A DNA stretch of 47,645 nucleotides from Alicyclobacillus acidiphilus NBRC 100859. GTDB lineage: Bacteria > Bacillota > Bacilli > Alicyclobacillales > Alicyclobacillaceae. Numbering within the stretch: the stretch's first letter is position 1; each line of letters begins with the position of its first letter. Both the position numbers and the translations under genes were made by a program. This document shows positions 2,458-12,238 of this stretch, one piece after another. The notes below the pieces were generated by a model that was not told the origin of the DNA, did no database searches, and saw only the letters and a list, made by a program, of their open reading frames with translations. The stretch is from assembly GCF_001544355.1 (NCBI RefSeq), contig NZ_BCQI01000021.1:1-47645 (forward strand). The letters run 5' to 3'.

Positions 2458-3564
2458 GTGTGGAATGACACGTCAGTCACGCGCATGTTGGGTATCCAAT
2501 ATCCAATTATCCAGGCGCCAATGGCAGGTGGCCCATCCACACCTGAGTTGGTTGCCGCGGTATCCAATGAAGGTGGACTCGGTTTTCTTGGAGCTGGGTA
2601 CATGTCGGCTGATTCGATCCGATCAGGTATTCGCAGGATACGAGAACTGACAGACAAGCCATTTGGGGTGAACCTATTCATTCCGGATGAGAACATACAG
2701 CTTGATAGGGAGATCATCAACTCCATGAAACGTCAGCTAAAGTCGCTGGGGTCGTTTGCAGAGGAATTTGCGGGCGAGATCGACAGCATTCAAGTAGAAC
2801 ATACCCCTGGAGCCGACTTTGCAAAACAACTGGAGGTTATCATAGAAGAACGGGTTCCTATCTTTAGCTTCACTTTCGGGTGCCCTACACGGGAAACCAT
2901 CGAGGAATTGAAAGCAAGGGGAACCTGTGTCATCGGTACTGCAACCACAGTTGCGGAAGCGATGACACTTGAACGCGCAGGCGTGGATGCCATCGTGGCT
3001 CAAGGTTATGAAGCCGGTGGCCATCGGGGCACGTTTCTAGGGTTCGGCGCGTCTTCCCTCATCGGCACGATCGCGCTGGTCCCTCAGATTGTGGATACGG
3101 TACACTTGCCAGTCATCGCGTCGGGCGGGATCATGGATGGCAGAGGCATCGCAGCTTGTCTTGCCTTGGGGGCGTCTGCGGTTCAAATGGGTACTGCGTT
3201 TCTCGCCAGTTTGGAAAGCGGAGCCCATCCAGAGCACAAGCATGCCATTCTCCATAGCCGAGACGCGGAGACCGTGATCACGACGGCTTTTTCGGGAAAA
3301 CCTGCCCGTGGTATTCGAAACGACTTCATGACGATAATGGAAGCATATGAGGCACCCATACCGCCGTACCCGGTCCAAAATACGCTGACTCGTCCACTGC
3401 GAAACTGGGCCGCACGACAGTCCAATCCAGCGTTTATGTCTCTGTGGGCAGGGCAGGCTTTTGCCCTGAGTCGGGAGGCGAGTGCGAGTGACCTAGTCCG
3501 GCGGTTTGTTCAAGAAGCACAGCAGGTTTTGAGTCCGTTTCATGATGAACAGCCAAAGACGTGA
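2458..3564 (+). CDS. Nitronate monooxygenase (2-nitropropane dioxygenase family)
   Basis: The product is a 368-aa FMN-dependent TIM-barrel enzyme that oxidises alkyl nitronates such as propionate 3-nitronate. The N-terminal LGIQYPIIQAPMAGG is the family's FMN-binding opening. AQGYEAGGHRG carries the histidine expected as catalytic base, and PVIASGGIMDGRG and QMGTAF form the phosphate-binding end of the barrel. The length is normal for the bacterial class. GTG 2458 is chosen because AAAGGGGAG lies about 6 bp upstream and the conserved N-terminus follows within ten residues. An open extension to 2383 lacks a ribosome site and has no family resemblance. Related folds such as enoyl-ACP reductase FabK are possible, but the GGHRG and N-terminal motifs favour nitronate monooxygenase. 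Confidence 0.85.
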   Translation: MWNDTSVTRMLGIQYPIIQAPMAGGPSTPELVAAVSNEGGLGFLGAGYMSADSIRSGIRRIRELTDKPFGVNLFIPDENIQLDREIINSMKRQLKSLGSFAEEFAGEIDSIQVEHTPGADFAKQLEVIIEERVPIFSFTFGCPTRETIEELKARGTCVIGTATTVAEAMTLERAGVDAIVAQGYEAGGHRGTFLGFGASSLIGTIALVPQIVDTVHLPVIASGGIMDGRGIAACLALGASAVQMGTAFLASLESGAHPEHKHAILHSRDAETVITTAFSGKPARGIRNDFMTIMEAYEAPIPPYPVQNTLTRPLRNWAARQSNPAFMSLWAGQAFALSREASASDLVRRFVQEAQQVLSPFHDEQPKT

Positions 3565-3650
3565 GGGAAAATTTAACCTCATCGATACTCCAACCTTCCG
3601 CATCGAAATTCACCTCGGTCGCTTTCACTTGCGATTTGCGTCATGGTAAA

Positions 3651-3685
3651 GGCCAGTCGCGGTCAGTGCACGCCCGCGACTGGCC
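3651..3685. terminator. 12-bp perfect stem between convergent genes
   Basis: GGCCAGTCGCGG (3651-3662) pairs exactly with 3674-3685 across an 11-nt loop. It lies between the convergent nitronate monooxygenase and the ABC exporter. The minus-strand side continues TTTACC, a weak U tract, and the plus side has none. It is probably a shared terminator. Confidence 0.55.
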
Positions 3686-3704
3686 CTTGCGCCTCCTCCA
3701 AACG

Positions 3705-5504
3705 TCATGCAAACTGTTCCTGCCCGGATGTTCCAGGCTCCTCTTCCTCCAACAACTTGCCGTGCCACAGCTTGCGCATCTCAGAACTGGTCTGCAGCAA
3801 TTCATCCAAGGTCCCTTGGGCCTCGACACGCCCATCCTTGAGAACGATAATCCGATCCGCTTGGGCCAATGCCGCCCGGCGGTGCGAGACGGCGATGCAG
3901 GTCGCTCGATTCTCCGCAAACAACCGCAGCCACAATTGCTTTTCCGTCTCTGCGTCCAAGGCGCTCGACAAATCGTCGAAGATGAGCAGCTCCGCTTGCG
4001 TCAGGAGCATTCGCGCCGTTGCCGCGCGCTGAATCTGTCCGCCGGAGAGCATCACGCCGCGCGGTCCGACGAAGGTGTCGAGGCCGTGTTCGAGATCGAC
4101 CAGGTCCTGCTCCATCACCGCGTGCCGAATCGCCGTGTCCAAGGTCGTCTGGGATACGTCTCGGCCCATGGTGATGTTTTCGCGCAGCGGATCGCTGAAC
4201 AATCTCGGCACCTGGGACGTGTAGGCGGCGTGCGGCGGCGTGAAAAACGCCGCTGGCTCGTGAATCGTCCGGCCGTTCCAGCAGATGGTCCCGGCCGTTT
4301 TCGGGAGCATGCCGAGGAGCGTGCGAATCAGTGTCGACTTGCCCGATCCGATGCGCCCCGTAATCACGAGGAACTCGCCGCGCTTGATGCGAAAGTCGAT
4401 CCCGGCAATCCCGTTCTCCGATTCCGGATATCGGTAGGTCAGTCCGCTGACCGTCAGTTCGGCAAACGGCTCGGCGGCAGGCTCAGCGTGCTGCGGTTGG
4501 GTCTGACCGGGTTCGTCGTAGAGGTGGATATCGGCGTGATCGATCAGTCTGTCGCCTTCCCCAGGCTTGAACAGAATGCGCATCCGATCCAGCGCGACCC
4601 GCAGCCGTTTGTGTTGATACACCATGTACGCGAACAGCGAGACGCTGTTGCCGAACCACGCCAGATAGGTCGTGAACAGGGCGAAATCGCCGACGGTGAA
4701 ATGGCCTGCCCGCATCTGCGCCGCGCACATCAGCAGAATGATGCCGGTCGAAATGTTCAGCACGTGCTGGTTCATCGACTGCACCCATTGGCGAAACAAG
4801 TTGTCGCGCAAGGCTGCCTGGCGGCGCTGTTCGTTCAACTCCAGGAACCGACCCAGCACATGATCCTCAGCCTGGCCCAGTTTGACGGCCTGAACCGCGC
4901 CGAACACTTCGGCGATGAACCCGGTGATACGGCCGGTAGCCTCGCGGTTCAACCTGCTGTACTTTCGAGCCCGGTTCCCCGACAAATTGTTCAGCAGCGT
5001 GACAATGAGCAGTGGAATCATCGCCACCAACGTGATCTGCCAATTGACGCGGACCATGATGGCGATGGAGACAACGGCAAAGACCAGGAATCCCCAGAAA
5101 TCCGTCCACGACTCCACATATTCAACCACTTCCTGCACGTCTTCTCGAAACCGCGTCATCGCCTCTCCGGGCGACGCAGGCAAGTGGCGGCCCGGCCAAC
5201 GCAGGATGCCAGCCAGCATGTTCGTCCGAAGCACGGCCTGCACGTGATAGATATGCGTTACCCAGGTGAAAAACGCGCCAAGAAACACGCCGACGCGCGT
5301 CCACCGCACGATCGCGACGAGCAGCAACGGCACCGCCATCCACCACATGCTGTGCGAATGATCTGTCATTCTATCAAAAAACCAGTCCATTCCAATCCCA
5401 ATGCCAAGCGGCAACGAGTGGAACACGCACCACTGCAGTCCGTCGACGACGTACAGCAGCGATCGGAAGCGAATCAACTTCCACATAAACTGTGTGACTG
5501 TCAC
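3705..5504 (-). CDS. ABC exporter half-transporter, degenerate-site subunit
   Basis: The 599-aa protein has an N-terminal six-helix exporter domain and a C-terminal ATPase. It carries Walker [11 protein letters not shown]-loop [10 protein letters not shown], signature MLSGGQIQR, Walker [13 protein letters not shown] and switch histidine AVSHR. The residue after Walker B is Asp, not the catalytic Glu. This is the usual mark of the non-catalytic site in heterodimeric exporters such as TM287/288 or BmrCD. The GTG start at 5504 overlaps the upstream subunit's TGA as GTGA, and GGAAAGGCGG lies just before it, so translation is probably coupled. The frame is open to 5675, but that part lies inside the upstream gene. 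It probably pairs with the 5501-7267 product to export a drug or lipid; the substrate is unknown. Confidence 0.9.
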
Positions 5505-7267
5505 GCAAATTCCGCCTTTCCATCGGCACGCAAGAGCGCGGCATAATGCGACGACGGATCGACCGCCAACGCGTCGCGTGCTCCAAATTCCACAATGCGT
5601 CCGTTTCGCAGGACCATGATTTTGTCGACTCGCTCCAACGTCGACAGCCGATGCGCGATCACGATACCGGTACAACGCTCCAGCAATTGCTCCACTGCGG
5701 CTTGAAGCGTCGCTTTCGTGGCGGGATCGAGCCGAGACGACGGTTCGTCGAGGATGACGAGGCTCGGCTTGGTCAGAAACACCCGCGTCAACGCGAACAA
5801 TTGCGCCTCGCCGGCAGACAACGAGGTCCCGCCAGAAGCCAGGTGCGTATCCAGGCCATCTGGCAGGCTGTCAATCCATATCTTCAATCCCAATTGCTCC
5901 GCGATGTCGAGAATATCCCCATCCGTCATGTTTCGGTTGAACAAGGTCAGGTTGTCGCGAAGCGTCCCGTCGAATAGTTGAACGTCCTGCGTCACCATTC
6001 CGACGCGGCGATACAACGCCTCAAAGGTCAGGCTCCGGATGTCGACACCGCCGACCCGAATCTCACCGCTGTCGAAGTTGTACAAACGCAACAACAATCG
6101 ACTGATACTCGATTTGCCGCTGCCTGTGCGACCGACAATGCCGAGCCGTTCACCCGGCCGAAGCTCGAAGTGAACGTCGTGCAAGACAGGCTCGCCTGGG
6201 TTGTAGCCGAAGCTCACGTGATCAAACTCGACGCTGAGCGGGCCCTCCGGCAAATACGCGTGCTGGCCTTCTTCAATCTCGCTTCGCAAGGCCAACAACT
6301 CCCGTGCCCTCCGCATGCCGGATTTCGCGCGCTGAAATTCTTGCATCTGGTTGCCCAGTTGCTCGATTGGGTTGTTCAACATCTGCGTGTACTGAAAAAA
6401 CAAGTAGACGGCGCCTAACGTCACCTGGTTGGTCAAGTACAGATGCAGACCGGTCAGCAGCACCGCGGTCACCGCGATGGTGAACAACACAACCGTCGCG
6501 TTCCACGGAATGACGCGCAGCATCCAGGCTTTCCGCCCTGTCTGAAAGACGTCGCGCATCGCGGTGAAGAAACGTCGCATCACGTAATCCACAGCGCCGT
6601 TGCTCTGGACGTCTTCAATACCCGCAATCCGCTCCTCAATCAACCCGAACAACGCCGCGCTCGACTGGCGTTCGGCTTGTGACGCGGTGACACCGAGATC
6701 GCGAATGGCCGCCATCACGACGAGAGACGCCGCCGTGAACGCCGTCATCACCGCCGCGATGAGCCAATTTTCAAAGAACATGACGACGAGAATCCCAGCA
6801 AGCAAGATGAAGCTGCCGACAATTTGCACCATGAACATGGCGAAAAAGTTGGACATGTTGGTGATGTCGCCATCGACCCGCTCAATCATCTCGCCTGGCG
6901 TCTTCAAATTGTGAAACCGCATGTCGAGGCGCAGCAGGTGCTTCATCAAATCGGCCCGCAGCTGATTGGTCGCGCGCCACGCGACATCATTGCCGAGGTA
7001 GCTGACGGCGACCGTGACAAATTGGTTGGCGATGGCAATCACAAGGTAGACGCCTGCAAGGTACAGCAGCGTTGCCACTGGCCCCCGCCCGCTCGCGACA
7101 TTGATAAACCGCTGCACAATCTGCGGATTGACCAATTCAAATATCGTCGTCGCAAACAGCAGCGACACCAGTAAAGCCATTCTCCCTTTCACAGGTTGCA
7201 AATAGCGAATCATCCAGGTCATGGACATGGAATTGGATGAACGATGTGATGAATCCGGGGATTTCAC
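5501..7267 (-). CDS. ABC exporter half-transporter, catalytic subunit
   Basis: A 588-aa multidrug-type half-transporter. The membrane domain spans about residues 20-310 and the ATPase about 345-580. Its motifs are Walker [11 protein letters not shown]-loop [10 protein letters not shown], signature SLSAGEAQL (a variant of LSGGQ), Walker [13 protein letters not shown] with a normal catalytic Glu, and switch IAHRLS. With the next gene's Asp substitution this gives one good and one degenerate ATP site. GTG 7267 follows GAAGGAGG at normal spacing; a later ATG in the MSMTWMIRY stretch is possible. The gene has its own promoter and an attenuator-like leader (7369-7575). Promoter, leader peptide, terminator and two half-transporters is the layout of Bacillus bmrBCD, which is induced by translation inhibitors. 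Confidence 0.9.
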
Positions 7268-7368
7268 AAATAAGCCTCCTTCAGGATGGATTCGGTCACA
7301 AAGCTGTCCATTCGGCTTCGTTGTGACATCTCCATGAGGAGGCCTGGGGATATGAGTGGAAATGGAAA

Positions 7369-7399
7369 CAAAAACACCCCAGGCTTACCGCCTGGAGTG
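7369..7399 (-). terminator. Intrinsic terminator in the ABC exporter leader (candidate attenuator)
   Basis: On the minus strand CACTCCAGGC pairs with GCCTGGGGTG over ten positions with a GGTAA loop, followed directly by TTTTTG. One pair is G-U on this strand and would be a C-A mismatch on the other, so the structure belongs to the minus-strand transcript. It lies about 100 nt before the exporter start and downstream of a dedicated promoter, so it should cap most transcripts unless read-through is induced. Confidence 0.75.
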
Positions 7400-7419
7400 A
7401 TGTGTTCGATTGGATAAAA

Positions 7420-7500
7420 CTATCGCACACGCACAACGAGGTCAGCCGAAATCGACAAGCTTATGAAATTGGATGAGATAACTCCATGAAGTTGCCGCAT
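7420..7500 (-). CDS. 26-aa leader peptide of the ABC exporter operon
   Basis: A 26-codon ORF runs from ATG 7498-7500 to TAG 7420-7422. AAGGGAGG (7510-7517) precedes it by nine bases, stronger than most ribosome sites in the window. It starts MRQLHGVISSNF and ends ADLVVRVR. The stop lies 20 nt before the terminator stem. TGGAGT at 7481-7486, inside the ORF, is complementary to ACTCCA in the stem's 5' arm, so a ribosome stalled early could allow an alternative pairing. The peptide itself probably has no function, as with BmrB upstream of bmrCD. The ORF and its ribosome site are seen; the regulatory role is inferred. Confidence 0.6.
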   Translation of the reverse strand: MRQLHGVISSNFISLSISADLVVRVR

Positions 7501-7546
7501 GTATGACGACCTCCCTTAGATCAACGTGTATGCTTGACGCGTATTG

Positions 7547-7575
7547 ACCATAACATGGCAATTCAACCATGTCAA
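7547..7575 (-). promoter_or_regulatory. Sigma-A promoter of the ABC exporter leader
   Basis: A consensus TTGACA (7570-7575 on the minus strand) is followed 17 bp later by TATGGT (7547-7552). It lies just past the end of the upstream gene at 7607 and about 45 bp before the leader ORF. The exporter thus has a promoter of its own, and the terminator at 7369-7399 falls inside that transcript. Confidence 0.7.
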
Positions 7576-7606
7576 CCACAAAAGCGAAGCTGGTGCGACG
7601 TACAGG

Positions 7607-8533
7607 TCAGTCCAGTTCGACGCGATCGAAATCACGCAACGCTTTGAGCGTCTTGACAGTAAGATGCCCTGCCCATTCCACTTGTGCCTTTGCCCAATCT
7701 TCTTCGTATTCGCCGAACCACGACCAGTTGGGGTGCCAAGCGCCATCCTCGCCGAGATGCTGAATCTCGTAATCGAGATTGGCGTCAATCGCTTCCCGCA
7801 GGGGAGGCGTGAACGGGCTTCGCGGCGACCACGCAATGTTGAGCGGCTTGGCTGCATATCCCTCCCATTCTGCGGGATCGATCGCGACGGTGCGGTGAAC
7901 CGATGGGGCCAAGCGCGCGAGAATGTGCGATCGATGCGACTGTGAGAGACTTTCGGCGAGCCGCTGATAGCAGAGAAAATCGTGCATGTCGATGGGGGCT
8001 GGCAAGGCATCCAGTTCGGTCATGGCTTTGTCCGTGATCGCCTGCAAAAACGGCTCAGGGACGAGCGCTGAGTAACGCCACAGATACCCTACGATCTCGG
8101 CATTGGGATTGGCCCACGTGCCCTCGACGCCGCATCGGCCAGTCGTCGGATCGAAGGTCCACCAGGGGGCGTGAGGGTATTCGTTGACCTCGTCAGGTAC
8201 CGCGTGCCAGCGCTGAGCCGCCTCATCAAATGTGTCAAGAAGGTACTGGATGGCTCGCTGGACGATGGGATCGCGGGCGGTCAGGCCCAACTCCACCGCA
8301 TATTGCAAGCCAACCGTCGTGGCCATGGCCGACGACGCCGGCAGACGAAAATCTGGCTCTATAGCCCGGCCGAAGCCGCCATCCTCATTTTGATAAGCTT
8401 GCAGCGCGTGACGGACGCTATCGATTGATCCGCCGTCGAAGTAGAATGCGGCAAGCGAAAGGTCGATCTCTCTGGCGTGTTCATCGATAAACCGACGGGC
8501 GCGACGCCAAGCGTCCTTCGACAAGATTTCCAT
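7607..8533 (-). CDS. Prenyltransferase/squalene-oxidase-repeat-like protein of unknown function
   Basis: The 308-aa soluble protein has repeats of the terpenoid cyclase/prenyltransferase alpha-toroid type: YQNEDGGFGRAIEPDFRLP near residues 48-66, a middle repeat around TGRCGVEGTWANPNAEI, and LGEDGAWHPNWSWFGEYEEDW near 265-285. It lacks the DxDD motif of squalene-hopene cyclase and is half that length, so a hopanoid cyclase role is not supported. Similar stand-alone proteins are usually annotated only as hypothetical with this fold. GGGGTGAAACG precedes the ATG. It lies 60 bp downstream of the histidine kinase on the same strand and may share its transcript. Confidence 0.7.
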   Translation of the reverse strand: MEILSKDAWRRARRFIDEHAREIDLSLAAFYFDGGSIDSVRHALQAYQNEDGGFGRAIEPDFRLPASSAMATTVGLQYAVELGLTARDPIVQRAIQYLLDTFDEAAQRWHAVPDEVNEYPHAPWWTFDPTTGRCGVEGTWANPNAEIVGYLWRYSALVPEPFLQAITDKAMTELDALPAPIDMHDFLCYQRLAESLSQSHRSHILARLAPSVHRTVAIDPAEWEGYAAKPLNIAWSPRSPFTPPLREAIDANLDYEIQHLGEDGAWHPNWSWFGEYEEDWAKAQVEWAGHLTVKTLKALRDFDRVELD

Positions 8534-8593
8534 CGTTTCACCCCATGATTGGAATATGTGTGCTATTGACCGAGAAACAGCGCTGCTCCTCCC

Positions 8594-9682
8594 TCACATC
8601 GACCCCGACTCGCGATTCGGCAGTTTGACAACGAACGTGGTCCCCTGGCCCAGTTGACTGTCTACCGCGATCTCGCCGCCGTGCATGTCGACAATCCGCT
8701 TGACGATGGACAAACCGAGACCGCTGCCAGATTCGCCGCGCGCACGGGCCTTATCCGCCTTATAAAACCGTTCGAAGATATGTATCTTTTCGTCATCGGC
8801 AATCCCGATTCCTGTATCTTGAAGCCGAACACATACAAACATGTCGTTCGTTTCCAACGCGATCCTGACGAAACCGCCTTCGGGCGTGAACTTGATCGCG
8901 TTTGCGAGCAGATTGATCCAGACCTGATTGAGCAAATCTCGATCACCGACGAACGAGGTGCTTGCGAGATCGAGATCGACCTGAATGGATTTTCGTTGCC
9001 ACAACGGCTCCAGCGACAACACCACATCGCGAAGCTGCCTATCCAATCGATACGATTCGGGATGAAATGGATGGTATCCTGATTCGAGCGAGGTCAGTTT
9101 CAGCAAATTATCGCTCAGACGCGATAAACGGCGGCTCTCGGTCTCGATGATCTGCAGATAGTGGTTCCGCTGATCTGGCGCTAGGTCGGGCTGCTTCAAG
9201 GCGTCGACGAAACCGACAATCGACGTCAGCGGCGATTGAATTTCGTGAGACACATTGGAGATGAACTCTTGACGCATCTGTTCGAGCTGAGCCAATTCTT
9301 GCGCCATGTCGTTGATACTGTGAACCAATTCGAAAAACGGATGGTGTTCGACTCTCGGATCCTCGGCCATGCCGAGATCGACCCGAACGTTGAAATCCCC
9401 CTTGGCAAGCCTGCGGATCACCTCGATCACCGACTGCACGAACGCCCTCTGACGCGGCGCGGCAACCCTGCCGATCATGCCTCCTGTCACGCCAAACAGC
9501 AGCATCCCGATGGCGACCGACGTCATCTGCCAAAGATACGGACTGGGCTTAACGCCGATCTCCCGATACAACCATGCGCTTACCAAATACCCCAGCGAGA
9601 ATGCGGCGAATGCCGCAGCGAGCGCCGAGGCGATCCGCCAGCCGATCCGCCAAACGTTCAGCCCCCGTCTCTCCCGCATCAC
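8594..9682 (-). CDS. Sensor histidine kinase with short extracytoplasmic loop
   Basis: A 362-aa membrane kinase. Two transmembrane helices (about residues 15-37 and 50-71) are joined by only about 12 residues, as in intramembrane-sensing kinases. A HAMP-like linker (IRRLAKGDFNVRVDLG) leads to a HisKA domain with the phospho-acceptor His at about 146 (NVSHEIQSPLTS). The ATPase domain has N box NLLANAIKF, G1 DTGIGI, F box FERFYKAD and G2 GSGLGLSIV. The start codon overlaps the response regulator's stop by 4 bp (ATGA). With so little outside the membrane it probably senses membrane state or a partner protein; the signal is unknown. Confidence 0.9.
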   Translation of the reverse strand: MMRERRGLNVWRIGWRIASALAAAFAAFSLGYLVSAWLYREIGVKPSPYLWQMTSVAIGMLLFGVTGGMIGRVAAPRQRAFVQSVIEVIRRLAKGDFNVRVDLGMAEDPRVEHHPFFELVHSINDMAQELAQLEQMRQEFISNVSHEIQSPLTSIVGFVDALKQPDLAPDQRNHYLQIIETESRRLSRLSDNLLKLTSLESGYHPFHPESYRLDRQLRDVVLSLEPLWQRKSIQVDLDLASTSFVGDRDLLNQVWINLLANAIKFTPEGGFVRIALETNDMFVCVRLQDTGIGIADDEKIHIFERFYKADKARARGESGSGLGLSIVKRIVDMHGGEIAVDSQLGQGTTFVVKLPNRESGSM

Positions 9683-10353
9683 CCTTCCGCCTCCAAACGG
9701 TATCCGAGGCCCCGAATGGTTCGGATCTTGAACGAACAGCGCTCCTCCGAAAATTTGTCGCGAAGCCGCTTGATATGGACGTCGACCGTCCGTTCGTCCC
9801 CGTCAAAATCGTAGCCCCAGATGTCCTCAATCAGTTGATCGCGAGACAACGTTTGCCCAGGATAGCTCGCCAGCTTGAACAGCAGTTCAAATTCCTTCGG
9901 CGGAAGCGCGATATCGTCGCCCTGATACGACGCCTCGCGCGTCCGGTAATCGAGGCGCAAGCCCCCAAGTTCAATCACTTGCTCCATGCTGATTCGATAT
10001 CGCCGAAGCAGCGCGCGGACGCGAGCGACCAGTTCTACCGGCTCAAACGGCTTGACGACATAGTCGTCCGCACCCAATTGCAAACCCTTGACCTTCTGCA
10101 CAGTTTCGCCCTGAGCCGTCAGCATCAAAATCGGCAACGAAGAATGCTCGCGAATCTCGCGACACAACGCCCAGCCGTCGACATTCGGCATCATGATGTC
10201 GATCACGGCCGCATCGACCTTCATCTCGCCCAATAGACGCAGTGCTTCGCGTCCATCTCCCGCTTCGCACACATCAAAACCATCGCGTTCGAGATTCAAG
10301 CGAACCAATTCGCGTATATACGGATCGTCGTCAACCACCAAAATCCGAGTCAT
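9679..10353 (-). CDS. OmpR/PhoB-family response regulator
   Basis: The 224-aa regulator has a receiver domain (acidic pocket VVDDD, phospho-acceptor D52 in AVIDIMMP, Thr in LMLTA and Lys in VVKPFEP) followed by a winged-helix domain (LPPKEFELLFKLA, then DERTVDVHIKRLRDKF and IRTIRGLGYRLE). ATG 10353 follows GGGGAGG at good spacing; the frame is open to 10464 but that part is not receiver-like. It is co-transcribed with the kinase through a 4-bp overlap. Direct repeats GTTCAT spaced 11 bp lie about 55-70 bp upstream, which fits autoregulation by a PhoB-type dimer. Confidence 0.92.
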   Translation of the reverse strand: MTRILVVDDDPYIRELVRLNLERDGFDVCEAGDGREALRLLGEMKVDAAVIDIMMPNVDGWALCREIREHSSLPILMLTAQGETVQKVKGLQLGADDYVVKPFEPVELVARVRALLRRYRISMEQVIELGGLRLDYRTREASYQGDDIALPPKEFELLFKLASYPGQTLSRDQLIEDIWGYDFDGDERTVDVHIKRLRDKFSEERCSFKIRTIRGLGYRLEAEG

Positions 10354-10386
10354 ATGGACCTCCCCATACTGCAGTGACATCGCTAA

Positions 10387-10424
10387 GTGGGATGATCCCA
10401 CGGAAAGATGAACGCAAAATGAAC
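10387..10424 (-). promoter_or_regulatory. PhoB-like direct repeats and a 15-bp palindrome upstream of the response regulator
   Basis: GTTCAT occurs twice on the minus strand (10419-10424 and 10408-10413), 11 bp apart, the spacing used by tandem-binding OmpR/PhoB regulators. Next, at 10387-10401, is the perfect palindrome GTGGGAT-G-ATCCCAC, 33 bp before the start codon. The repeats may be the regulator's own box. The palindrome may be an operator or a small leader hairpin. Confidence 0.45.
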
Positions 10425-10538
10425 AGCGCTTGGCTTCAGCCTGTCCGCACCTGCCCGCATCCATGATACTGCCAAATCTGCACCGGCGGCGAGCAATGGG
10501 CGTGGGGGCGTCGGGGCGTCGGGCGGGGATGCATACGG

Positions 10539-10730
10539 CAAATAAGCCGCCGTGGGCCGCTTAAGTGTGTCGAATCATCTGAGTCACGCCGAATAAGCGG
10601 CCCACAGACGCTTAAATCGCCGCAACCACGCCATTCCGGCGGGTACGGAAGCAAATAAGCGGCCCACGGCCGCCTATTTGCCATCCATTCGGCCATTTCA
10701 TCGAAATAAGCGGCCCAGGGCAGCTTATTT
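10539..10730. repeat. Palindrome block, copy A (four GC-rich imperfect palindromes)
   Basis: A 192-bp unit contains four related imperfect palindromes at about 10540-10564, 10590-10617, 10652-10679 and 10703-10730. The arms read AAATAAGCGGCC and GGCCGCTTATTT or close variants. Each can form a hairpin on either strand. The spacers are unrelated to the palindromes but are conserved between the two copies. It lies upstream of the response regulator and looks like a REP/BIME-style intergenic element. No ORF crosses it convincingly. Confidence 0.8.
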
Positions 10731-10837
10731 CCCCCTGCCAACTGCCTGCCAACTGCGCGAGCCTGCCCGATCACGCCGCCCCCCACCTCCGCGATCGCCC
10801 CACCGCACGATCCCTGGCGAACGGGGGACGCACACGC

Positions 10838-11029
10838 CAAATAAGCCGCCGTGGGCCGCTTAAGTGTGTCGAATTATCTCAGCCGCGACGAATAAGCGGC
10901 CCACAGACGCTTAAATCGCCGCAACCACGCCATTCCGGCGGATACGGAAGCAAATAAGCGGCCCACGGCCGCCTATTTGCCATCCATTCGGCCATTTCAT
11001 CGAAATAAGCGGCCCTGGGCCGCTTATTT
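10838..11029. repeat. Palindrome block, copy B (direct repeat of copy A)
   Basis: It is the same length as copy A with no indels and about eight mismatches in 192 positions, exactly 299 bp downstream in the same orientation. The mismatches fall mainly in the first spacer and in the fourth palindrome, where A reads GGCCCAGGGCAGC and B reads GGCCCTGGGCCGC. B's version restores a perfect palindrome, so copy A's fourth hairpin is the decayed one. Between the copies (10731-10837) is unrelated GC-rich sequence without a gene. Confidence 0.8.
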
Positions 11030-11030
11030 G

Positions 11031-11073
11031 CCCTACCACCTATCTCCCCTACCACCTATCTCCCCTACCACCT
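11031..11073. repeat. 16-bp tandem repeat, about 2.7 units
   Basis: The unit CCCTACCACCTATCTC repeats at 11031-11046 and 11047-11062, with 11 bp of a third copy. It starts two bases after the second palindrome block and runs into the 3' end of a doubtful small ORF. Confidence 0.75.
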
Positions 11074-11255
11074 AGAACGGTGCCGCTCGGCGCAATCGTT
11101 TTGCGGTTTTGGATGAACGTCATGCGCTTGAAATGAAGCGTGATCACATGAGCGTGCGATTGAACGCCAACATAGGCATCTCCCTTGGTTATAAACAAGG
11201 GAAGGTAAAATGCATTGAGCGACGAGCCCAGAAATGCATCTTCGATCTGCCTCAT
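11049..11255 (-). CDS. Possible small hypothetical protein (68 aa)
   Basis: The frame begins MRQIEDAFLGSSLNAFYLP. ACGGGAG precedes the ATG by about six bases, a fair ribosome site. The last residues (TVLGGRGDRW) are encoded by the 16-bp tandem repeat, so the natural C-terminus has probably been lost or overwritten. I recognise no family. It may be a decayed gene or chance. Confidence 0.25.
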   Translation of the reverse strand: MRQIEDAFLGSSLNAFYLPLFITKGDAYVGVQSHAHVITLHFKRMTFIQNRKTIAPSGTVLGGRGDRW

Positions 11256-11692
11256 CTGAGTCTCCCGTTGTCTCCATCGCACGAGCCTTGCGTTTGGCGG
11301 GGTGAGTCCATGTGTAGGGCTATCGCGCGGACCACATTCGATCCAAGCGGCACATTACTTGGTGAATTCGTTGTCTGGGTTTGCGGATTGATTTTCCGTT
11401 CGGTTTTGCGATCGCGTATGATTCGAAACCGTCGTGACATGTGCAAGGTCCCCACGCTGGGCATGCGCAGGCGGGCCATGGTGCCGGCGATCGCGATGAG
11501 AATGGCGGCGACTGCCGTTCCGTTGGTTCCTACCCAATTTCGCTTCTGTGTTTTGTCGTTGCGACGATATATTCTTTCACCGTTTGTTGTTCTGTCACCG
11601 ATCACGCCCCCCAACCTGATCCCACCATGAAGAGATTCTATCGCCTCGTCGCCGCGACAGTCGAAGAACCGTGTCACGATGACTCTGAGTCC
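11256..11692. other. Gene-poor stretch between palindrome blocks and MarR gene
   Basis: I see no convincing gene in these 437 bp. A minus-strand fragment has a hydrophobic segment (NGTAVAAILIAIAGTMARL, about 11470-11525). A separate GTG-led 22-codon frame lies just before it, in another reading frame. They could be one frameshifted small membrane-protein gene, but there is no family match to support it. Confidence 0.3.
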
Positions 11693-12238
11693 CTAATCGA
11701 CCTCATCAGGTTCGGGTGCAATCCATGGAGACGCCAAGCCGTCTCTGAGGAACGACACGATAAAGCGGAGCTCATTGACATCATACTTTTGAAAGAACCT
11801 CTGAACGCCCTCATCGATTCGTTCGTGGAGCATTCGATGAAGGCCAAACAGTTCGTGTCCCAACGGGGTCAAGCGAAAGTAAATTTCCTTCCTGTTTTCA
11901 GGAATGCTCCCCGCGATGATCAGTTCGCTTTTCATTAATCTTCGTGTGATCTTAGACACCGTGCCCTTCGGAACCTGCATCTCCTTCGAGATGGTAATTC
12001 CATTGACAGGCTGACAGCGACCAATGGTGTCGAGGACATGAAGCGTCATTGTCGTCATATTATCCACCATCTGCTGCAGGACAGGATTTTCACAGTGTGC
12101 TCGAAGCCATTGTTTCTCTTCGTCGAATTCGATACGTTGTTGCAACTGCACGATCAAACGAATGATTTCATTCATCAAAGTCTTGACTTCATGCCCATCG
12201 TTCCGCTCAACAGGATCGTTGCTTTGAAAGCGTTCCAT
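11693..12238 (-). CDS. MarR-family transcriptional regulator
   Basis: The 181-aa regulator has a central winged helix: VLDTIGRCQPVNGITISKEMQVPKGTVSKITRRLMKSELI (helix-turn-helix about residues 85-125), a wing in PENRKEIYFRLTPLG, and a C-terminal helix for dimerisation. The N-terminus is longer than in typical 140-150-aa members. It diverges from the FAD monooxygenase gene. Two related palindromes in the 144-bp gap each touch one promoter, the classic arrangement of a MarR repressor controlling itself and a detoxification enzyme. A perfect TATAAT on the minus strand (12268-12273) is its probable -10. Confidence 0.85.
   Translation of the reverse strand: MERFQSNDPVERNDGHEVKTLMNEIIRLIVQLQQRIEFDEEKQWLRAHCENPVLQQMVDNMTTMTLHVLDTIGRCQPVNGITISKEMQVPKGTVSKITRRLMKSELIIAGSIPENRKEIYFRLTPLGHELFGLHRMLHERIDEGVQRFFQKYDVNELRFIVSFLRDGLASPWIAPEPDEVD

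Follow-up and report, generated by a model that had tools for sequence, protein, structure and literature searches.

The exporter genes and their leader

The window, i.e. the whole stretch of 47,645 nucleotides from Alicyclobacillus acidiphilus NBRC 100859 that was analyzed, carries on its minus strand two adjacent genes encoding an ABC exporter. Subunit A (5501-7267, 588 aa, defined by ORF translation and domain matches) starts with the GTG at 7267, and subunit B (3705-5504) probably starts with a GTG at 5504 that overlaps the stop codon of A, a start that was placed by eye; for the searches, 5540-3705 was used as the query for B. ABC_membrane and ABC_tran were found in both subunits by domain search. 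In the translations, subunit A reads LSAGE and LDE and subunit B reads LSGGQ and FDD, so that one ATP site is presumably degenerate. Two adjacent half-transporters with such a site place the pair among the heterodimeric type IV ABC exporters. TM_0288 was the first bacterial solved structure for subunit A among the best 60 of 81 matches. The chain names BmrC and BmrD were found neither among these best 60 of the 81 solved relatives of A (E<=1e-60) nor among the solved relatives of B (36/36 inspected, E<=1e-50).

Genes for a histidine kinase and a response regulator are located further upstream (8594-10380, minus strand), before the gene that precedes the leader. For the 308-aa product of the latter gene (7607-8533, minus strand), which has the two-component genes on one side and the leader on the other, neither Pfam nor NCBIfam gave a match at E<=0.001.

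All elements of the leader are located on the minus strand. It begins with a sigma-A-type promoter (7547-7575) seen in the sequence, with TTGACA as the -35 (7575-7570), TATGGT as the -10 (7552-7547), a spacer of 17 nt and a TG preceding the -10. The promoter is followed by the leader Shine-Dalgarno sequence (SD) GGGAGGTC (7508-7515) and by a leader ORF of 26 codons, MRQLHGVISSNFISLSISADLVVRVR, which runs from the ATG at 7500 to the TAG at 7420. According to covariation, the leader SD is at the same time the 5' strand of a helix, P1 (strand 1), the 3' strand of which is the anti-SD GGCTGACCTC within codons 18-21 (7438-7447, strand 2), as indicated by covariation and folding. The last codons, GTGTGCGAT, pair with ATCGAACAC directly 5' of the terminator in a further covarying hairpin, P3 (7402-7430), which is a candidate pause hairpin or antiterminator core. 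The intrinsic terminator, supported by folding and covariation, starts 20 nt past the ORF stop as the stem-loop CACTCCAGGC-GGTAA-GCCTGGGGTG (7375-7399, strands 3 and 4); its stem has 10 pairs, including seven G-C and one G-U, and is followed by the U-tract TTTTTG (7369-7374), again seen in the sequence. Further downstream, shuffle z-scores point to a stretch termed box 2, CCCCAGGCCTCCT (7337-7349), the first part of which complements the terminator 3' arm and the second part the exporter SD AGGAGG (7275-7280). In the read-through RNA the exporter SD is predicted to be mostly paired (13% unpaired).

A first-pass annotation of the locus had listed, besides a promoter and a strong ribosome site, an ORF of 26 codons, a 10-bp stem, TTTTTG and the exporter start, and each of these elements was found in its place. 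Nine terminator-like sites are present in 3000-12000, compared to a mean of 9.6 in shuffles; the one in the leader has 10 pairs and the other eight have 5-6. The leader RNA folds with -56 kcal/mol, shuffles with -41.05 +/- 3.41 (z -4.38), and none of 200 shuffles was as good.

Conservation and covariation

Altogether, 26 distinct leaders were obtained, nine from the window's family, 15 from a second family and two from named genomes, every one of them upstream of an ortholog of the same exporter; the hosts are related soil and acid-loving bacteria. The promoter pattern TTGAC(A/G)-17/18-TATNNT is present in 26/26 leaders. An SD-like stretch, a short ORF and an intrinsic terminator are, by sequence, each kept in all 26 as well, and the proposal of a leader ORF and an intrinsic terminator before a heterodimeric exporter was borne out. 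The start codon is always ATG or GTG (GTG in three leaders), and the ORF has exactly 26 codons in 15 of the 26, with a range of 19-35. In 17 leaders the anti-SD motif (GGCTGACC or a variant) begins 53 nt after the A of the start codon. It is read in another frame in L005, L015, L016, L017 and L079, and contains the stop codon of the ORF in L015, L016 and L079.

P1 pairs the leader SD with GACC in the 3'-terminal part of the ORF, and P2 pairs the start region with codons of about 14-17, those for G-L-Y. The structure was tested on a 26-row MAFFT alignment (A5) with 32 pairs from P1, P2, P3 and the terminator, and 83.3% of the cells were paired, compared to 80.0% in shuffles and 27-45% in slid controls. 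Two-sided changes were found in 45 cells against 20.3 in shuffles (0/500 as high), 16 pairs had a two-sided change against 10.5 (4/500 as high), and 47 further pair types were counted against 42.5 (19/500), where the shuffles ignore the relatedness of the leaders and the pairs had been picked by eye from the same 26 sequences. P1 and P2 both covary, as does P3, and 99.1% of the terminator cells are paired in the 26 leaders. Compared to linker shuffles (60 each), P3 reached p<=0.05 in 13/26 leaders, with p 0.17 in the window. The apical part of P1/P2 varies in sequence and length and contains some conserved bases.

The occurrence of 26 leaders with covarying helices argues for a conserved regulatory leader and not for a chance arrangement. 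Judged from sequence, it is a real, conserved RNA of the attenuator type, in which P1/P2, P3 and the terminator are well supported and the antiterminator weakly to moderately so. Scanning the window leader and ten relatives against Rfam gave no match at gathering thresholds.

Distribution of the leader

In the window's family, the exporter is present in 9 of 41 genomes (E<=1e-120), and all nine have the leader upstream. A pattern search in named genomes gave 18 exporter loci, with the leader in Alicyclobacillus ferrooxydans, A. mengziensis and Gordonibacillus kamchatkensis among others. For wider searches an RNA model (R1) was built from 11 distinct aligned leaders, i.e. the nine of the window's family plus L013 and L015. 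In the window's order, R1 matched 9 of 59 genomes at E<=5.2e-23. As these are the nine seed genomes, the result demonstrates specificity, with the leader not found elsewhere in the order, and adds no independent finds; seven further matches at E 0.07-0.89 only were taken as chance. In 398 genomes of the class, six matched at E<=1e-4. Five of these belong to the window's family and had been in the seed, and the sixth is G212, the leader of which (L037) is that of L013, so that the class-level matches likewise add no locus to the seed. A terminator-only pattern was found in 8 of the 398 class genomes, in five cases in leaders of this exporter and in three in unrelated places (L034-L036).

Matches outside the seed came from a second family, to which G057 belongs and which is probably the Paenibacillaceae; of the 245 genomes searched there, 20 matched at E<=0.05 and 15 at E<=1.7e-6. 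All 15 strong matches are upstream of the exporter. The five weak ones (L083-L087, E 1.9e-4 to 0.042) are from genomes without the exporter at E<=1e-200 and were excluded from all counts. The exporter itself is present in 62 of the 245 genomes (E<=1e-200), and 47 of these 62 lack a strong R1 match (among them G557, where the stretch is N). When 30 of the 62 loci were viewed, 13 had the leader, 16 had none by eye, and in one (L106) the upstream stretch is N.

Three Paenibacillus orthologs (L020, L021 and L024) have a terminator of similar sequence before the gene, e.g. ACTCCGGGC..GCCTGGAGT in L020, and no leader ORF was seen in them by eye. From their sequence, these terminators look like a remnant of the leader.

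The exporter tree comprised 51 rows with 23 of the 26 leaders; missing were L033 (partial exporter), L069 (G486) and L082 (G456). Every row of the window's family carries the leader, as does a single well-supported clade within the second family. L106 falls inside this clade and was labelled as leader-less in the tree, though its upstream stretch is N, and L013 and L015 do not settle in any one position. The leader label changes five times on the tree and three to five times in bootstrap trees, a pattern that fits an old leader with several losses, the deep forks being without resolution.

Folding in different states of the ribosome

The first-pass annotation had suggested that TGGAGT inside the ORF pairs with the terminator 5' arm. 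Both are indeed complementary over 6 nt (7486-7481), but the predicted pairing is 0.000 in the full-length as well as in the truncated RNA, and TGGAGT occurs in 1/26 leaders only, GGAGT in 3/26. Folding of 7250-7545 with 7475-7500 free or blocked did not favour this pairing either, which was 0.000 when free and zero by construction when blocked; terminator pairing in this fold was 0.87 free and 0.71 blocked. In the truncated RNA, pairing of the 5' arm with upstream sequence rose little on blocking, from 0.49 to 0.55. The candidate strand that would compete for the terminator is instead, according to the folding model, the end of the ORF, codons of about 19-26.

For the switch, the RNA was ended before the terminator 3' arm and folded in three states: free, with an early ribosome, and with a ribosome at the ORF end. 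In this order, the terminator 5' arm of the window is paired with strand 2 at 0.17, 0.68 and 0.00, and with any partner at 0.39, 0.66 and 0.27. The E. coli trp leader, used as a control, gave 0.05, 0.73 and 0.06 for the 5' arm with anything upstream; by this like measure, the contrast between states is smaller in the window than in the control. With an early ribosome, strand-2 pairing rises by at least 0.15 in 9/26 leaders including the window, falls by at least 0.15 in two and changes less in 15. At the end state it is 0.15 or less in 26/26, mostly because strand 2 is masked. For six leaders (L012, L013, L015, L032, L077 and L079), the end state gives a pairing of at least 0.5 between the 5' arm and strand 1, which would oppose termination, contrary to the attenuator model.

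Compared to linker shuffles (60 each), the antiterminator reached p<=0.05 in 2/26 leaders, with p 0.05 in the window. Columns 122-125 of A5 pair with columns 200-203 in 88.5% of the cells, but for the whole antiterminator structure the covariation within the second family did not exceed that of shuffles. The terminator is favoured in every state of all 26 leaders, by -4.8 to -19.9 kcal/mol. The trp leader, however, also prefers its terminator (-12 to -13.7 kcal/mol), and the preference therefore does not refute attenuation; its use as a refutation was dropped because of this control.

Proposed regulation of the exporter

On balance, we regard it as fairly probable that the leader is a ribosome-mediated transcription attenuator of the vmlR/bmrB kind for the exporter operon. 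P1/P2 overlaps the leader ORF and would be able to act as an anti-antiterminator. When no ribosome is loaded, P1/P2 would form and the terminator would end transcription. A ribosome running through normally would reach the ORF end and cover strand 2, and the terminator would again be free. Slowing or stalling of a ribosome early in the ORF, however, would keep P1/P2 from forming, and strand 2 (codons 19-26 and the following bases) could then pair with the terminator 5' arm as an antiterminator, so that the exporter would be transcribed. Slow ribosomes in general, rather than a sequence-specific arrest peptide, would be the signal, with ribosome-targeting antibiotics as the most plausible cause of the slowing. 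A repeated regulatory codon, comparable to the tandem Trp codons of the trp leader, was not seen in the leader ORF.

Whether peptide or RNA is under selection was judged from substitutions at codon positions 1, 2 and 3. In 13 second-family leaders that share the frame, these amount to 340, 335 and 325 in the N-terminal part, to 116, 118 and 149 in an N-x-I-G-L stretch, and to 79, 116 and 97 in the conserved end, where a third-position excess is absent. In 18 frame-sharing leaders (the other 8 of the 26 differ in frame or length) they amount to 286, 267 and 397 for N-x-I-G-L and to 173, 254 and 314 for the conserved end, i.e. a mild third-position excess. We read these counts as suggesting selection mainly on the RNA, with selection on the peptide at most weak.

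The counts bear on the alternative that the leader encodes a drug-dependent arrest peptide, in which a C-terminal R-x-R/H before the stop stalls the drug-bound ribosome. +X+ is a macrolide-stalling motif; the ORF of the window ends in VVRVR and many second-family leaders end in VRMR or VRMH, and the mild third-position excess in the N-x-I-G-L codons would be in line with such a peptide. However, R-x-R makes up the final three residues in 5/26 leaders only, several C-termini are quite different (QNG, TIG, SVG, LTS), and substitutions by codon position in the conserved end hardly point to selection at the peptide level. A ribosome stalled at the ORF end would moreover cover strand 2, which in an attenuator would favour termination. 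The arrest peptide was ruled out as the main reading by the codon positions together with the variable C-terminus, and we consider it very unlikely. Much the same probability is given to a ligand-binding, riboswitch-like RNA, in which the apical loop of P1/P2 would sense a small molecule and the ORF would be secondary. A structured, covarying hairpin with some conserved bases is what such an RNA would have, but the SD-like stretch and the ATG or GTG are kept throughout and the 53-nt geometry in 17/26, the apical part is variable in sequence and length, and the Rfam scan of the window and its ten relatives gave nothing at gathering thresholds.

An unregulated leader, with a terminator that merely lowers basal expression and a short ORF without a regulatory role, would account for L020, L021 and L024, where a terminator is present and no ORF was seen by eye, and for the many orthologs without any part of the leader. 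On the other hand, it is hard to see without regulation why 26 leaders should keep a steady ORF geometry and conceal the leader SD in covarying hairpins, and this alternative seems unlikely to us, if slightly less so than the arrest peptide and the riboswitch-like RNA.

An extension of the proposed attenuator would be a relay of mutually exclusive helices. It would act as a one-shot ribosome sensor, through which the pump would be controlled in its translation as well as its transcription, a model which we regard as doubtful. The order of pairings would be leader SD with ORF end, ORF end with terminator 5' arm, the two terminator arms, terminator 3' arm with box 2, and box 2 with exporter SD. 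Since the end of the ORF conceals the leader SD, a ribosome could report in such a relay only if it loaded before transcription had reached about codon 19. In the window, the terminator 3' arm is changed to GCCTGGGG (instead of GCCTGGAG), and CCCCAGGC in box 2 (7349-7342) complements it, with the overlapping AGGCCTCCT complementing the exporter SD; a match of the changed arm by its own box 2 is as selected pairing would predict. GGGG is present in the terminator 3' arm of five leaders, and in three of these the best box-2 match contains a CCCC stretch. Box 2 of the window has z -2.98 with the terminator 3' arm and z -4.06 with the exporter SD. The pairing of terminator 3' arm and box 2 beats shuffles (p<=0.05) in 9/26 leaders, that of box 2 and exporter SD in 2/18, the analysis of the exporter SD covering those 18 leaders for which the script found an exporter start with SD (the other 8 of the 26 gave none). 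With the terminator 5' arm masked, the exporter SD becomes only slightly more accessible in most of these 18 leaders (from 13% to 23% unpaired in the window), with the largest change in L082 (from 2% to 36%). Because of this small release of the SD and the 2/18 leaders that beat shuffles, the translational half of the relay was rejected as the main reading.

Comparison with known leaders

The first-pass annotation had drawn a parallel to bmrB-bmrCD of B. subtilis. The idea is the same, a leader ORF with a terminator before a heterodimeric ABC exporter, but the layout of vmlR is closer, since the terminator of bmrB is, according to the excerpts of the source, inside the ORF, which has 53 codons and an AbrB-controlled promoter (PMC4191407), whereas here it starts beyond the ORF stop. 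The same excerpts state that induction of bmrCD needs translation of the leader ORF and, in a figure legend, that the antiterminator is energetically less favourable than the terminator (PMC4191407).

In vmlR of B. subtilis, as far as the excerpted text goes, an upstream ORF lies within an anti-antiterminator hairpin; next come a pause hairpin, a terminator and a hairpin that sequesters the SD of the main gene, and stalling in the upstream ORF yields an antiterminator, a regulation that has been demonstrated (PMC9226507). The same order is seen in our leader, with a putative anti-antiterminator that overlaps the ORF, a candidate pause hairpin and a terminator, and the putative box 2 pairings of the window resemble the fourth hairpin of vmlR. 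The gene encodes an ABC-F resistance factor in the one case and an ABC exporter in the other, and the regulation shown for vmlR (PMC9226507) is a prediction for our leader. In addition, the vmlR ORF has, by the same excerpts, three codons and a single-stranded SD, whereas here there are 26 codons, with SD and start predicted to pair with the later codons of the same ORF (PMC9226507). What sets our leader apart from vmlR and bmrB is its SD, which, as the covarying P1 indicates, the later codons of the ORF conceal.

The E. coli trp leader shares the 1:2 / 2:3 / 3:4 logic and a similar fold behaviour over the three ribosome states, but senses the supply of Trp via its tandem Trp codons. In toiL of E. 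coli, a short ORF responds in a general way to several translation inhibitors (PMC12121999, excerpts), and our leader would resemble it in this respect, although toiL, by the same excerpts, acts via translation and Rho-dependent termination and not via an intrinsic terminator (PMC12121999). The earlier statement that no description of this leader was known agrees with our literature search, in which none of the open-licence papers among the matches listed dealt with it by title or abstract.

The leader is thus a putative attenuator-type RNA, conserved and tied to one exporter, from outside the Rfam families at the thresholds and for the sequences given above, and it hints at a role of the exporter with compounds that slow ribosomes. 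The 26 natural variants of one switch, together with leader-less and terminator-only relatives, should allow the parts needed for sensing slow ribosomes to be separated.

Two more distant exporters from family f2 (L010 and L011, 44% and 43% identity) have a leader of different sequence on the reverse complement, with an SD (near 1258 in L010), ORFs of 25 and 54 codons and the terminator GGGAACCG..GCGGTTTTTTT; the 54-codon ORF of this pair contains near-repeats around YGI/CGI. These different leaders with ORF and terminator suggest that the layout has been used more than once, or that it is old.
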